Below, one piece after another: positions 4,679-50,725 of a stretch of 64,000 nt of DNA. The first letter of the stretch is position 1, and every line of letters begins with the position of its first letter. The stretch spans positions 310,001-374,000 of the forward strand of contig JAPZUC010000002.1 in the NCBI GenBank assembly GCA_027533455.1, in the 5' to 3' direction. Source of the stretch: Porphyrobacter sp. GTDB taxonomy: Bacteria; Pseudomonadota; Alphaproteobacteria; Sphingomonadales; Sphingomonadaceae. The notes under the pieces are model-generated. The model was not told the origin of the DNA, did no database searches, and worked only from the letters and a program-made list of their open reading frames with translations. A program made the position numbers and the translations under genes.

Positions 4679-5428
4679 CTATATGCCGGCATACCACTGG
4701 TAGCCCGCGACATCCTCCCACAATCCGCCGCCGCCTTTGCCGATGTCGGCGAAGCTAGTCACGGCCTCGATTGCCTTCACATATTTGGCCTGTTTATAGC
4801 CGAGCTGGCGTTCGATCCGCATCCTGAGCGGCGCGCCGTTCTTTTCGGGGAGCGGTTCGCCGTTCAGGCTGTGAGCGATGATCGTCTGCGGGTGATAGGC
4901 GTCGACCATGTCGATGCTCTCGTAATAGTCGCGCCCGTAGAGCGTATCGGCGCAGCGGAAGACGATGAACTTTGCTTCCGACCGGACCTTGGCTGCATCG
5001 AGCAGAACGGCCAGTTGCGGCCCCTGCCATTCGCCGATCGCGCTCCAGCCTTCCACGCAGTCATGGCGGGTGATCTGGGTTCGCTGGGGAAGCGCCTTCA
5101 GCTCAGCAAGGCTGAGCGCCAGCGGCAGATCGACAAGCCCCTTCACCTCCAACCGCCAATCGGGAAAACCACTCGCCAGCTGCTGCTGGTAAAAGGGATC
5201 GGCGACCGTCACCGAACCATTGCCGCGGAATGTGGGCGAACGTTCGGCGCGGGTATATTCAGGCGCAAGGCCCTGCTTGCCCGCCAGCGCGCGGTGGAGC
5301 GTACGGTGCCCGTCCTCGGCCGCCTCGAACAGGCCATGCGCGGTCTGGCTCTCGTTGATTTTGGAGCACGCCGTCGCTCCCAAAGCGGCGATCCCGGCGA
5401 GCAGCGAGCGGCGCGGCAAGTCAACCAT
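4679..5428 (-). CDS. molybdopterin-dependent oxidoreductase, sulfite-oxidase fold
   Basis: 249 aa. The N-terminus has a twin-arginine-like signal (RRSLLAG), and ATAC resembles a lipobox, so export by Tat, possibly as a lipoprotein, is likely. The oxidoreductase molybdopterin-binding domain covers about residues 75-230. The Mo-ligating cysteine is in HDCVEGWS, followed by GEWQGP; a later GAPLRMRIERQLGYKQ motif is also typical. The gene overlaps the preceding cytochrome b gene by 8 bases, so the pair probably forms a periplasmic Mo enzyme with a membrane haem electron donor, similar in layout to MsrPQ. The true substrate cannot be read from the sequence. Confidence 0.88.
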   Translation of the reverse strand: MVDLPRRSLLAGIAALGATACSKINESQTAHGLFEAAEDGHRTLHRALAGKQGLAPEYTRAERSPTFRGNGSVTVADPFYQQQLASGFPDWRLEVKGLVDLPLALSLAELKALPQRTQITRHDCVEGWSAIGEWQGPQLAVLLDAAKVRSEAKFIVFRCADTLYGRDYYESIDMVDAYHPQTIIAHSLNGEPLPEKNGAPLRMRIERQLGYKQAKYVKAIEAVTSFADIGKGGGGLWEDVAGYQWYAGI

Positions 5429-6146
5429 GGGCGGGCACTCCTTCTTCGGCAGGTTCGGTCGGGGGAGGAGCGGGCTGGGGCGGGGCCTCGTGACGTCTGC
5501 CTCCGGTGAACATTTCGAGGATCAGCCGCCAATCGGTGAGCGCGAGCACGAGGTGGATCACGAAGAAGCTGAAGATGCCCCACGCCGCGATGAAGTGGAG
5601 CGAACGCGCGCTCTGGCGTCCGCCGAGAACGTCGAGCAGCCACGGTGCTGCCGCCTGAAAACCGGGGCTGATCGCAAGCCCGGTAAACAGCATCAGCGGC
5701 AACAGCACGCCGAATACCCCGCCATACAGAATCTTCTGCACCGGGTTATAGCCATGAGCGCCTCCCGCGTGAGCGCCCGAGTGTGCTTTCAGCGAAGCGA
5801 TGACCGCGCCGGGCGTCCAGTCTCCGGGCGAAGTGGTGAGGTCGCGGCGGAAGTGGCCGTTCGCCAGCATCGCCACCCAGATGAACAGCACGCCAAGGCC
5901 GAAGGGCCATGCGGCGGTGATGTGCCAGTCGCGGGCCAGCGCAAGGTTGTAATGCCCGGGGATCGTCGCCCAGCCGGGGAAGCGCACCACCGCCAGCCAC
6001 GCCTCCTTCGGTTCGAAGCCGTAGTCACCCCAATAGAGGTAGCGGTGCGCGTTCGAGATGTTCAGCCCGGTCATGAACAGCACGATGATCGCCGCCGCAT
6101 TCACCCAGTGCCACAGGCGGGTCGAAAGAGCGTGCTTTCGGATCAT
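5421..6146 (-). CDS. cytochrome b/b6-type membrane subunit (Ni/Fe-hydrogenase b-type family)
   Basis: 241 aa. An integral membrane cytochrome with about four helices (roughly residues 14-35, 100-120, 150-172, 190-210). Candidate haem histidines lie in STRLWHWVNA, GWATIPGHYN, DWHITAAW and FFVIHLVLALTDW. It probably supplies electrons to the Mo oxidoreductase with which it overlaps by 8 bases. The start is the ATG with AAGGGA seven bases upstream. A TTG five codons earlier overlaps the stop of the upstream SDR gene as TTGA and is an alternative start. The C-terminus is a proline-rich cytoplasmic tail. Confidence 0.87.
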   Translation of the reverse strand: MIRKHALSTRLWHWVNAAAIIVLFMTGLNISNAHRYLYWGDYGFEPKEAWLAVVRFPGWATIPGHYNLALARDWHITAAWPFGLGVLFIWVAMLANGHFRRDLTTSPGDWTPGAVIASLKAHSGAHAGGAHGYNPVQKILYGGVFGVLLPLMLFTGLAISPGFQAAAPWLLDVLGGRQSARSLHFIAAWGIFSFFVIHLVLALTDWRLILEMFTGGRRHEAPPQPAPPPTEPAEEGVPAHG

Positions 6147-48188: not shown

Positions 48189-48971
48189 TCAGCGAGCGTT
48201 GTGAACGGCCTCGGCCAGCGCGGCGGTGACGGTTCTAAGGTGCTTGGGAGCATCTGCGCCATACTCCCCGCAGATTTCCACGAGAGCCGAACCGACCACC
48301 ACGCCGTCCGCCACCTTGGCGATGGCGGCGGCCTGCTCGGGCGTGCGCACGCCGAAGCCGACCGCGACGGGGAGGTCGCTCGACTGCTTGATGCGCGCCA
48401 CGTTCGCCTCGATGCTCTCGATCTGGGCCTGCTGCTTGCCGGTGATCCCCGCGACCGAGACATAGTAGATAAACCCTGCCGACCCGGCGAGCACCTGCGG
48501 CAGGCGCGCGGCGTCGGTCGTCGGAGTGGCAAGGCGGATCGGGGCGATGCCCTTGGCGCGCAAGGCCGGCCCGAGCGCGTCGTCCTCCTCGGGCGGAATG
48601 TCGACGCAGATGACGCCGTCAACGCCTGCCGCCGAGGCCGCGTCCGCGAACCATTCCGGCCCGCGCCGCACCATCGGATTGGCATAGCCCATCAGCACCA
48701 GCGGCACATTCGGGTGCCGCGCGCGGAAATCAGTGGCGTAGCGCAGCACATCCGCCGTGGTCGTACCCGCGCCCAGCGAGCGCAGATTGGCGCTCTGGAT
48801 CGCGGGGCCATCGGCCATCGGATCGGTGAAGGGCATGCCCAGTTCGATCACATCCGCGCCGGCTTCCACCAGCGCATTGAGATTGGCCGCGGTGTCGCCG
48901 TCGCCTGCAGTGATGAAGCAGACGAGCGCGGTGCGGGGGGCGGCGAAGGTGGTGGAGAGGCGGTTCGTCAA
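48189..48971 (-). CDS. trpA: tryptophan synthase alpha subunit
   Basis: 260 aa. Cleaves indole-3-glycerol phosphate to indole, which passes through a tunnel to TrpB. Family sequence: FAAPRTALVCFITAGDGD, VIELGMPFTDPMADGP with the catalytic Glu and Asp, GVDGVICVDIPPEE, and the phosphate-binding GVRTPEQAAAI and GVVVGSALVEI. The start is TTG at 48971, which overlaps the stop of the small ORF at 48968 as TTGA and begins with TNRLSTTF. The frame is open further upstream but not conserved. The gene is separated from trpB by three small ORFs. Confidence 0.94.
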   Translation of the reverse strand: MTNRLSTTFAAPRTALVCFITAGDGDTAANLNALVEAGADVIELGMPFTDPMADGPAIQSANLRSLGAGTTTADVLRYATDFRARHPNVPLVLMGYANPMVRRGPEWFADAASAAGVDGVICVDIPPEEDDALGPALRAKGIAPIRLATPTTDAARLPQVLAGSAGFIYYVSVAGITGKQQAQIESIEANVARIKQSSDLPVAVGFGVRTPEQAAAIAKVADGVVVGSALVEICGEYGADAPKHLRTVTAALAEAVHNAR

Positions 48972-49252
48972 AAGTCGGATTCCGGAACATGTTTCGAGAA
49001 GAAGGCGATGACCGAGGTCGCGCAGGAGGCCCCTGCAACAAAGGATGCTCCTTGGGCAAGTGATACCGGCCAATGGAAGAAATGCGCGTAGATAACGCTG
49101 GCGGCGTAGAACGGTGTGGCGATCACAAAAGCGAGCTTGGCGCGCGGCAAGCTCCAGCTGCGGATAAAACGTCCGGTGTGTCGCCCGAGGAAGCCTTCCT
49201 CGTATTCCTTCATCGGCAGGATCTTTTGCCGTGGGGCCGGACGCCGCCTCAT
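48968..49252 (-). CDS. small membrane protein of unknown function between trpB and trpA
   Basis: 94 aa. A basic N-terminus (MRRRPAPRQK) is followed by two hydrophobic segments (about residues 40-58 and 65-83, around a short HW-containing loop) and a polar C-terminus. I do not recognise a family. The ATG overlaps the stop of the preceding ORF as ATGA and the stop overlaps trpA as TTGA, so it is fully embedded in the coupled trp unit. A shorter start at 49213 is possible but lacks the overlap. Codon usage looks like its neighbours. Confidence 0.65.
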   Translation of the reverse strand: MRRRPAPRQKILPMKEYEEGFLGRHTGRFIRSWSLPRAKLAFVIATPFYAASVIYAHFFHWPVSLAQGASFVAGASCATSVIAFFSKHVPESDF

Positions 49253-49329
49253 TCCGGCTTCCGGTAGGCGGTACTCATGATGATGCTGAAGCGGAATTCC
49301 TCGAAGATGGTGGTGGAGAGGCGGGTCAT
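49249..49329 (-). CDS. 26-codon ORF beginning with a copy of the trpA N-terminus
   Basis: Encodes [20 protein letters not shown] plus six residues. The first seven residues repeat the start of TrpA (TNRLSTTF), and 16 bases are identical in the two places (49309-49324 and 48948-48963). The ATG overlaps the stop of the 62-codon ORF as ATGA, and its stop overlaps the next ORF as ATGA. This is best explained as a remnant of a duplicated trpA start kept open for translational coupling. A functional peptide is possible but unproven. Confidence 0.5.
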   Translation of the reverse strand: MTRLSTTIFEEFRFSIIMSTAYRKPE

Positions 49330-49510
49330 CCGAGCAACCGACTTTTCAGCCTCACCATCGAACCCATCACAAAAAAGAGTACGGAAACGACCGCGACCTC
49401 TCCAGCAGATTTCGTGTTCTCGAACCCGAAAGAGCTTGCAAGAAGCGAGGCGACGATTGGAACGCCGGCAAAGAACAGGCCGACGCAAATCGCTCTCGCA
49501 TGCTGACTGC

Positions 49511-49514
<4 letters not shown>
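49326..49514 (-). CDS. 62-codon membrane peptide directly after trpB
   Basis: Starts at TTG (49514), which overlaps the trpB stop as TTGA. The product has two hydrophobic stretches (about 9-28 and 40-53) and a basic C-terminus (VRLKSRLLG), a two-helix hairpin like that of the 94-aa protein further on, although the sequences are only weakly alike. I do not recognise a family. The ATG of the next ORF overlaps its stop. The ORF extends upstream inside trpB in the same frame, but the TTGA junction is the most likely start. Confidence 0.6.

Positions 49515-50721
<1,207 letters not shown>

Positions 50722-50725
<4 letters not shown>

Follow-up and report, generated by a model that had tools for sequence, protein, structure and literature searches.

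Short gene cassettes between trpB and trpA in Porphyrobacter and related Sphingomonadales: a probable exchange slot inside the trp operon

The stretch of DNA analysed in this work (64,000 nt of a Porphyrobacter contig, hereafter the window) carries a trp locus in which three short open reading frames separate trpB from trpA, all on the minus strand. The left anchor of this slot is trpB (49511-50725), a 404-aa ORF matched above the cut-off by the TIGR00263 model and 81-99% identical to the trpB of 158 other loci, 17 of them duplicates. It overlaps by TTGA (49511-49514) with ORF62 (49326-49514, TTG start, 62 codons), the first cassette, predicted to encode a two-helix membrane protein. ORF62 overlaps by ATGA (49326-49329) with ORF26 (49249-49329, ATG start, 26 codons), a probable recombination scar, which in turn overlaps by ATGA (49249-49252) with ORF94 (48968-49252, ATG start, 94 codons), the second cassette, a predicted membrane-hairpin gene that is under purifying selection. 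Finally, ORF94 overlaps by TTGA (48968-48971) with trpA (48189-48971, TTG start, above the TIGR00262 cut-off), whose genuine start region (48945-48969) serves as the right anchor of the slot. The neighbours trpF, trpB, trpA, accD and folC are all named above NCBIfam cut-offs. The chain of four 4-nt overlaps given in the preliminary description is thus present as claimed; since dinucleotide shuffling of the window insert also yields a chain composed entirely of -4 overlaps in 4 of 200 cases, the window chain by itself is just moderately improbable. No inverted repeat of at least 12 nt was found between positions 48700 and 49700, in a type of search that imperfect attC sites could escape.

ORF94 exhibits two rather weak hydropathy peaks (1.56 and 1.48), slightly below the cut-off of 1.6, and when modelled alone it is predicted with low confidence to form three helices (pLDDT 66, pTM 0.28). 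The profile search of 114 genus genomes returned three matches of this family, all at the trpB-trpA joint. The relatives in genomes G017 and G062 had first been found with the window protein as a whole-genome query, which also gave one weak place in G067 (0.0016), with two in-frame stops and located elsewhere than the joint. Among 397 family genomes the ORF94 family was found in two other genera (loci L206 and L207), in both cases between trpB and trpA. In comparison with the copy from L014, where another cassette also precedes ORF94, differences affect 34 of 68 synonymous sites and 43 of 214 nonsynonymous sites (Fisher 3e-6) and are distributed over the codon positions as 20/16/41. Over three pairs of family members dN/dS is 0.16-0.28 (0.28 with the window copy), with Fisher values of 3e-6 or lower and an excess of third-position changes. 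On the grounds of the relatives at the same joint and the dN/dS of 0.28, ORF94 is, by its pattern of substitution, a real protein-coding gene under purifying selection. Its family profile pairs with an 83-aa family, F3 (5e-4 and 5e-3), while the PDB sequence search and the search of plasmids, phages and viral contigs gave no match.

ORF62 is the more clearly hydrophobic of the two, with peaks of 2.37 and 1.86. Neither ORF62 nor ORF94 matched any family in Pfam (E up to 1), PHROGs (0.05), NCBIfam (0.001) or PADLOC (0.05). As claimed earlier, both resemble membrane hairpins of no known family, with a clear membrane prediction for ORF62 and peaks slightly under the cut-off for ORF94. A search of 100 genus genomes with ORF62 reported its own genome and a weak place in G068 (E 0.006) but no clear relative; it is absent from the plasmid and phage records searched, and its DNA matches nothing in 118 inserts (106 distinct, window included) beyond a copy of the trpA start and a few preceding bases. 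ORF62 is probably the same kind of gene as ORF94, and as it has no clear relative in the 100 genomes, its translation is only presumed.

ORF26 is most likely of a different nature. Its first 25 nt (49306-49330) copy the trpA start (48945-48969) at 88% identity, and the trpA starts of 31 loci match this copy site. The last eight residues, STAYRKPE (49249-49275), are identical at 7 of 8 positions to the end of the junction ORF of L020 (STAYRKPA), probably as the leftover of another cassette's 3' end; shuffled tails equalled this match in 1 of 20000 trials against 144 C-termini. With a trpA-start copy at its head and the tail of another junction ORF at its end, ORF26 looks like a recombination scar in which the two were fused, and its status as a gene is not borne out. 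Of the translation proposed earlier for all three ORFs, that of ORF94 is supported by purifying selection, that of ORF62 is presumed and that of ORF26 is not retained.

A TrpA search of 100 genus genomes (own included) matched 92, and joints were taken from 80 of the 91 other matching genomes (G004, G015, G024, G033, G052, G055, G066, G072, G077, G085 and G094 were left out on account of distant or broken matches), which with the window gives 81 joints; at every joint the ORF chains were rebuilt from the trpB stop to the trpA start. Inserts of at least 30 nt are found in 67 of the 81 joints, mostly with predicted membrane ORFs, and direct overlap occurs in 14, all of which have a GTG trpA start. 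The junction survey proposed in the preliminary description thereby bears out the split joint, and its premise that trpB and trpA nearly always adjoin fails locally; the 14 relatives with directly adjacent genes, an arrangement that, combined with a lack of ribosome density, it had named as speaking against the ORFs, are taken as turnover and not as absence of genes. Sixty-four inserts carry an ORF chain and three do not. A predicted membrane ORF (at least 50 aa, with a Kyte-Doolittle 19-residue mean of at least 1.6) is present in 54 of the 67, and the remaining 10 chained inserts hold a repeat (L021), a restriction enzyme (L024), weakly CdiI-like ORFs (L063/L069), an ankyrin protein (L068), DUF559-like ORFs (L069/L085) or other short or soluble ORFs. 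Chains consisting entirely of -4 overlaps occur in 41 of the 67 inserts vs 4.2 expected (34 of them a single ORF with -4 at both ends), and chains of -1, -4 or -8 links in 54 vs 6.3 expected. The earlier argument that such a chain is unlikely by chance holds for the genus, and just moderately for the window alone.

Of 80 named Sphingomonadales loci 78 had both genes (L100 and L148 were without trpA); a membrane ORF lies in the insert of 35 of these, 12 have an insert of another kind, in 4 the insert contains no chain, and 27 are direct. L097, from the cultured Erythrobacter oryzae COR-2, is one of the relatives that carry an insert. Seventeen named loci are the same joints as in the genus sample, and the 118 inserts are 106 distinct ones. 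Across alphaproteobacteria a trpB-trpA gap of at least 100 nt was found in 6 of 94 genomes (one of them from the window's family) and of at least 150 nt in 2 (the 94 are what remained of 105 TrpB-matching genomes after exclusion of the window's own, of six that lacked a TrpA match or had a partial TrpB, and of four in which the two genes lay on different contigs or strands). Small, fast-changing genes appear to fill the trpB-trpA seam in the window and in most relatives examined, in apparent translational coupling with their neighbours.

The neighbouring joints served as controls. Among the named loci and the window, gaps of at least 100 nt occur in 50 of 79 trpB-trpA joints, 22 of 73 trpF-trpB, 14 of 76 trpA-accD and 20 of 74 accD-folC joints, and in 20 genomes (20 kb each, covering 10 neighbour joints) a membrane ORF was found in 18 of 20 trpB-trpA joints vs 0 of 20 at each of the other three. 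Coupled ORFs of this kind are nearly absent from the neighbouring joints of the operon. TM-positive ORFs were also encountered at gnat-trpF (4/19), folC-orf435 (4/20) and orf191-orf804 (6/20), where they seem to be uncoupled, as in the examples listed they begin 33-732 nt past the upstream stop; those at gnat-trpF read like antisense translations. At orf436-pyrF all 19 joints hold a TM ORF (130-139 aa in the four listed examples), which we regard as an ordinary conserved gene; gnat and pyrF are presumptive names of ours. Seven of the 22 longest ORFs in the trpF-trpB gaps are TM-positive; the longest ORFs in the trpF-trpB, trpA-accD and accD-folC gaps look like repeats or antisense frames, with the exception of L139 and L150. 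The accD-folC joint of these two loci contains a membrane ORF of 98 aa that is coupled to folC by a -4 overlap and by eye is similar to the MKRDWR-type ORFs, which makes this joint a possible second slot; given this coupled membrane ORF, the trpB-trpA slot would not be unique. As separate observations, the trpF-trpB joint of 16 named loci (e.g. L116, L123, L127) holds inserts of 713-1651 nt whose sense frames look like a conserved gene read in antisense, which probably means a gene on the opposite strand within the operon, and the gnat-trpF joint of L176, L180, L182 and L192 (4/19 genomes) holds inserts of ~570-590 nt, likewise with a likely opposite-strand gene.

The 67 non-repeat ORFs of at least 50 aa fall into up to 38 families, of which 23 are singletons. 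A TM segment is predicted in 82% of them vs 19% of random ORFs of equal composition. Averaged over 58 two-helix ORFs from all loci, the N end carries a net charge of +2.3, the loop -1.2 and the C end +1.6; taken together, the ends are more positive than the loop in 56 of these ORFs. With positive ends and a negative loop, this pattern fits hairpins with both ends inside and suggests that the usual cargo is a small membrane hairpin, predicted to have both termini in the cytoplasm. For measurable non-repeat pairs dN/dS is 0.08-0.38 (no value is obtained for many other pairs, whose synonymous sites are saturated), with 0.10-0.27 in the DUF559-like cluster; the exceptions are L063/L069 with 0.54, based on few differences, and the repeat-derived ORFs with 0.47-0.84. 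In the L126 insert (4832-6008) two diverged members of a family with four TM segments stand in tandem; the model of this 4-TM family (pLDDT 72) had no PDB fold match below E 0.001, and its PDB sequence search returned chance-level matches only (best E 0.13).

The content of the joint changes rapidly between relatives. By trpB DNA the window is closest to L019, L018 and L013 (92-93%), which carry families 8, 18 and 2, respectively. Where trpB is 93-95% identical (15 pairs), the inserts are unrelated in 10 pairs, one of the two joints is direct in 3 and the family is the same in 2; the sole pair with trpB at least 95% identical has a common insert family. A tree of 79 rows (built from the trpB end and part of trpA, with strong support on 8 of 76 inner branches) requires at least 61 changes of family state, with many singleton families, and at least 10 changes between direct and insert states. 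The trpB-trpA joint is an accessory-gene hotspot: its flanks are constant and its content varies in related genomes. Part of this turnover could be rapid divergence, and families counted as unrelated may be far-diverged, since profile matches between families below 1e-3 (14) exceed those of segment-shuffled (1.3) and reversed (3) controls. A single superfamily of insert ORFs was considered and dropped, as on iteration the shuffled controls scored alike (best 1e-6); the family count is an upper bound.

The families also return to the same place. The 4-TM family gave 5 of 5 matches at the joint and none elsewhere in 100 genus genomes (all five being profile seeds), and 11 of 11 at the joint in 298 family genomes (one seed, one the L150 genome, and nine new). 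The 83-aa family gave 5 of 6 matches at the joint in 100 genomes (four seeds), the sixth, in G007, being located elsewhere, weak (8e-4) and interrupted by one in-frame stop. Together with the ORF94 family, 25 of 26 whole-genome matches lie at trpB-trpA, or 15 of 16 without joint-derived seeds; this site restriction is read from three families, with 10 of the 26 matches being profile seeds taken from joints. A profile of the MKRDWR-type hairpins (A6) gave no match in 298 genomes and is uninformative. As for the profile searches proposed in the preliminary description, they brought the ORF94 family back at the joint (3/3 and 2/2) and left ORF62 without a clear relative.

Direct traces of exchange were found at several joints. 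The 110-aa ORFs of L063 and L069 are 98-100% identical, while the corresponding trpB blocks are just 73-88% identical; the tract of identity extends from 8 nt before the ORF start to ~25 nt into trpA, and L069 keeps the donor-like trpA start as a remnant, followed by another element and then its own trpA. Judged from these alignments, this is one recent transfer confined to the cassette, and this best transfer case concerns a soluble ORF. Copies of the trpA start are present inside the inserts of the window, L069, L091, L121 and L124, and copies of the trpB end inside those of L050 (same record as L108) and L150; the reversed-insert control gave 0 flank copies. The flank-copy matches of L065 and L109 are weak (one query each), and the insert of L205 also contains a trpB fragment. 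Among 15 rows of flank matches, those of L034, L128, L145 and L147 and the trpB row of L124 were treated as chance. Separately, we noted that the elements of L069, L085, L119, L124, L139, L158 and L091, whose insert ORFs we take to be DUF559-like, mostly end in TPSP.GEGA-type repeat translations, and that in L069, L091 and L124 the repeat is directly preceded by a copy of the trpA start, which would fit entry of the element into trpA near codon 12 with duplication of the start.

We propose that in these Sphingomonadales short gene cassettes are exchanged at the trpB-trpA joint, a slot at which translational coupling acts as the gatekeeper, a reading that we consider probable (roughly 0.7). A typical cassette would consist of a single ORF whose start lies in the trpB stop (TTGA or GTGA) and whose end lies in the trpA start (mostly ATGA); ribosomes that have finished trpB would then re-start on the cassette and again on trpA, and this stop-start coupling would keep trpA translated. 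The conserved trpB end and trpA start may serve as anchors for the recombination by which cassettes enter and are replaced, with no recombinase encoded by the cassettes themselves. Exchange anchored in this way would explain why the families stay at one site and why trpA starts and trpB ends are left as scars inside inserts; the necessity for ribosomes to reach trpA would explain why even the bare repeat of L021 is in frame with overlaps at both ends. The window would then represent two cassettes in tandem (ORF62, the scar ORF26, and ORF94), with ORF26 as the seam at which the incoming ORF62, together with a trpA start, met the tail of a resident cassette standing before ORF94.

As to what the cassettes do, an accessory membrane role in competition or defence is our leading guess, and a tentative one. 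A related alternative, which we regard as doubtful, takes the cargo to be genes for defence against, or immunity to, phages or competing bacteria, and the slot to be a minute defence island within an operon. It agrees with the high turnover and with several matches among the cargo: the L024 insert ORF matches a methyl-directed restriction enzyme (PADLOC 1.4e-51), the L068 ORF matches the ankyrin model of a candidate defence system (1.2e-16), the L063 ORF has a weak match to the CdiI_2 immunity family (0.005, below the cut-off), and two insert members match PycTM weakly (best 0.0024). However, the genes behind these hints are a few soluble ones, and nothing comparable was seen for ORF62 or ORF94, for which the searches of PADLOC, Pfam, PHROGs, NCBIfam and phage and plasmid records described above were all negative; the other membrane ORFs scanned singly gave no PADLOC match better than 0.04, and pooled scans gave scattered weak ones.

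According to a second alternative, the genes are born in place: stray repeats would be forced open by the coupling to trpA and some of them would mature into membrane proteins, making the joint a gene nursery and not an exchange site. The return of the three traced families to the site agrees with this scenario, as do the L021 insert, which consists of a REP-like repeat alone (40 codons, in frame, -4 overlaps at both ends), the inserts of L013, L035, L040 and L081 that combine a repeat with a membrane ORF, and the GC content of the membrane ORFs, 51.5% vs 64.2% in the trpB end. We nonetheless find it unlikely, given families common to several genera at the same site, the near-identical ORF in two lineages with strongly differing trpB (L063/L069), and the flank scars and genes with known relatives (ankyrin, DUF4145, restriction enzyme), which speak for exchange and import; moreover, comparison of the window insert with the other inserts revealed no non-coding forerunner of a membrane ORF. 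It can be added as an observation that REP-like repeats in the joints of L013, L021, L035, L040, L051, L053, L071, L081 and others are translated in silico into in-frame peptides (RHCEEPKATRQ...RYARND, VIPDLIRDPA...) which often overlap their neighbours by -4.

The hairpins might instead serve tryptophan synthase itself, for instance by tethering TrpA/TrpB or the trp mRNA to the membrane or by tuning the TrpA:TrpB ratio. Their position between the two subunit genes with coupling on both sides, the return of families to the site across genera, and the strong N-in/C-in bias in spite of unrelated sequences are what such a role would predict. Still, 14 of the 81 joints do without an insert and others hold soluble proteins or repeats, and exchange by flank homology would confine families to the site whatever their function, which renders this role quite improbable. 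A variant that keeps the recombinase-free cassette site with coupling as the gatekeeper holds that the hairpin form alone matters, the nascent N-in/C-in hairpin drawing the trp mRNA and new TrpA/TrpB to the membrane; this would account for the repeated filling of the slot by unrelated sequences of the same topology, and it is a long shot. That the ORFs are spurious, i.e. long frames from GC-rich DNA with coincidental overlaps, is scarcely credible: the 4 of 200 shuffles and the probable non-gene ORF26 are in its favour, but the genus-wide excess of -4 chains, the codon-position pattern and dN/dS of ORF94, and the ORF94 relatives at the same place in two further genera contradict it.

The exchange slot proposed here can be compared with several known systems. 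The trpB-trpA pair is a textbook example of translational coupling and of adjacent genes in an operon. Chromosomal hotspots and integron cassettes likewise combine a fixed site and conserved flanking genes with variable cargo; they differ from the slot, which in the window has no long inverted repeat, lies inside an operon and carries mostly open frames with overlaps. Genes of unknown function within trp operons, also between trpB and trpA, are mentioned in one report for one Sargasso Sea contig, some Flavobacterium and Burkholderia (PMC2395257). These are non-trp genes at the same joint, but as described there they are isolated cases, whereas in the window's genus the joint is hypervariable in most sampled members, with coupled small membrane genes, scars and returning families. 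Coupling by termination-reinitiation at 4-nt overlaps, as outlined in PMC6728339 and PMC10666635, involves similar ATGA-type overlaps of operon neighbours; in the slot the two partners stand apart, and unrelated inserts restore the overlaps. In Streptomyces, TrpM/TrpX, a small ORF once without known function inside the trpCXBA locus (PMC5036795), is one gene placed before trpB, unlike the exchanged genes between trpB and trpA, a distinction drawn from the description and not from sequence. The de novo membrane proteins of budding yeast, which according to PMC7005711 emerge from thymine-rich sequences, are also new membrane-protein genes, while the slot ORFs are conserved, exchanged and located in an operon. 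A literature search at the level of titles and abstract openings, with thin coverage of subscription papers, returned no description of such a trpB-trpA slot.

A genus in which fast-changing, selected, site-bound membrane genes split most of the sampled trpB-trpA joints amounts to a natural experiment on the acceptance of new genes by operons. From the alleles at this one site it can be read how coupling is required, by which route exchange proceeds and where orphan membrane proteins come from, and the slot supplies a large set of unstudied small membrane proteins that can be checked in any genome of the group.
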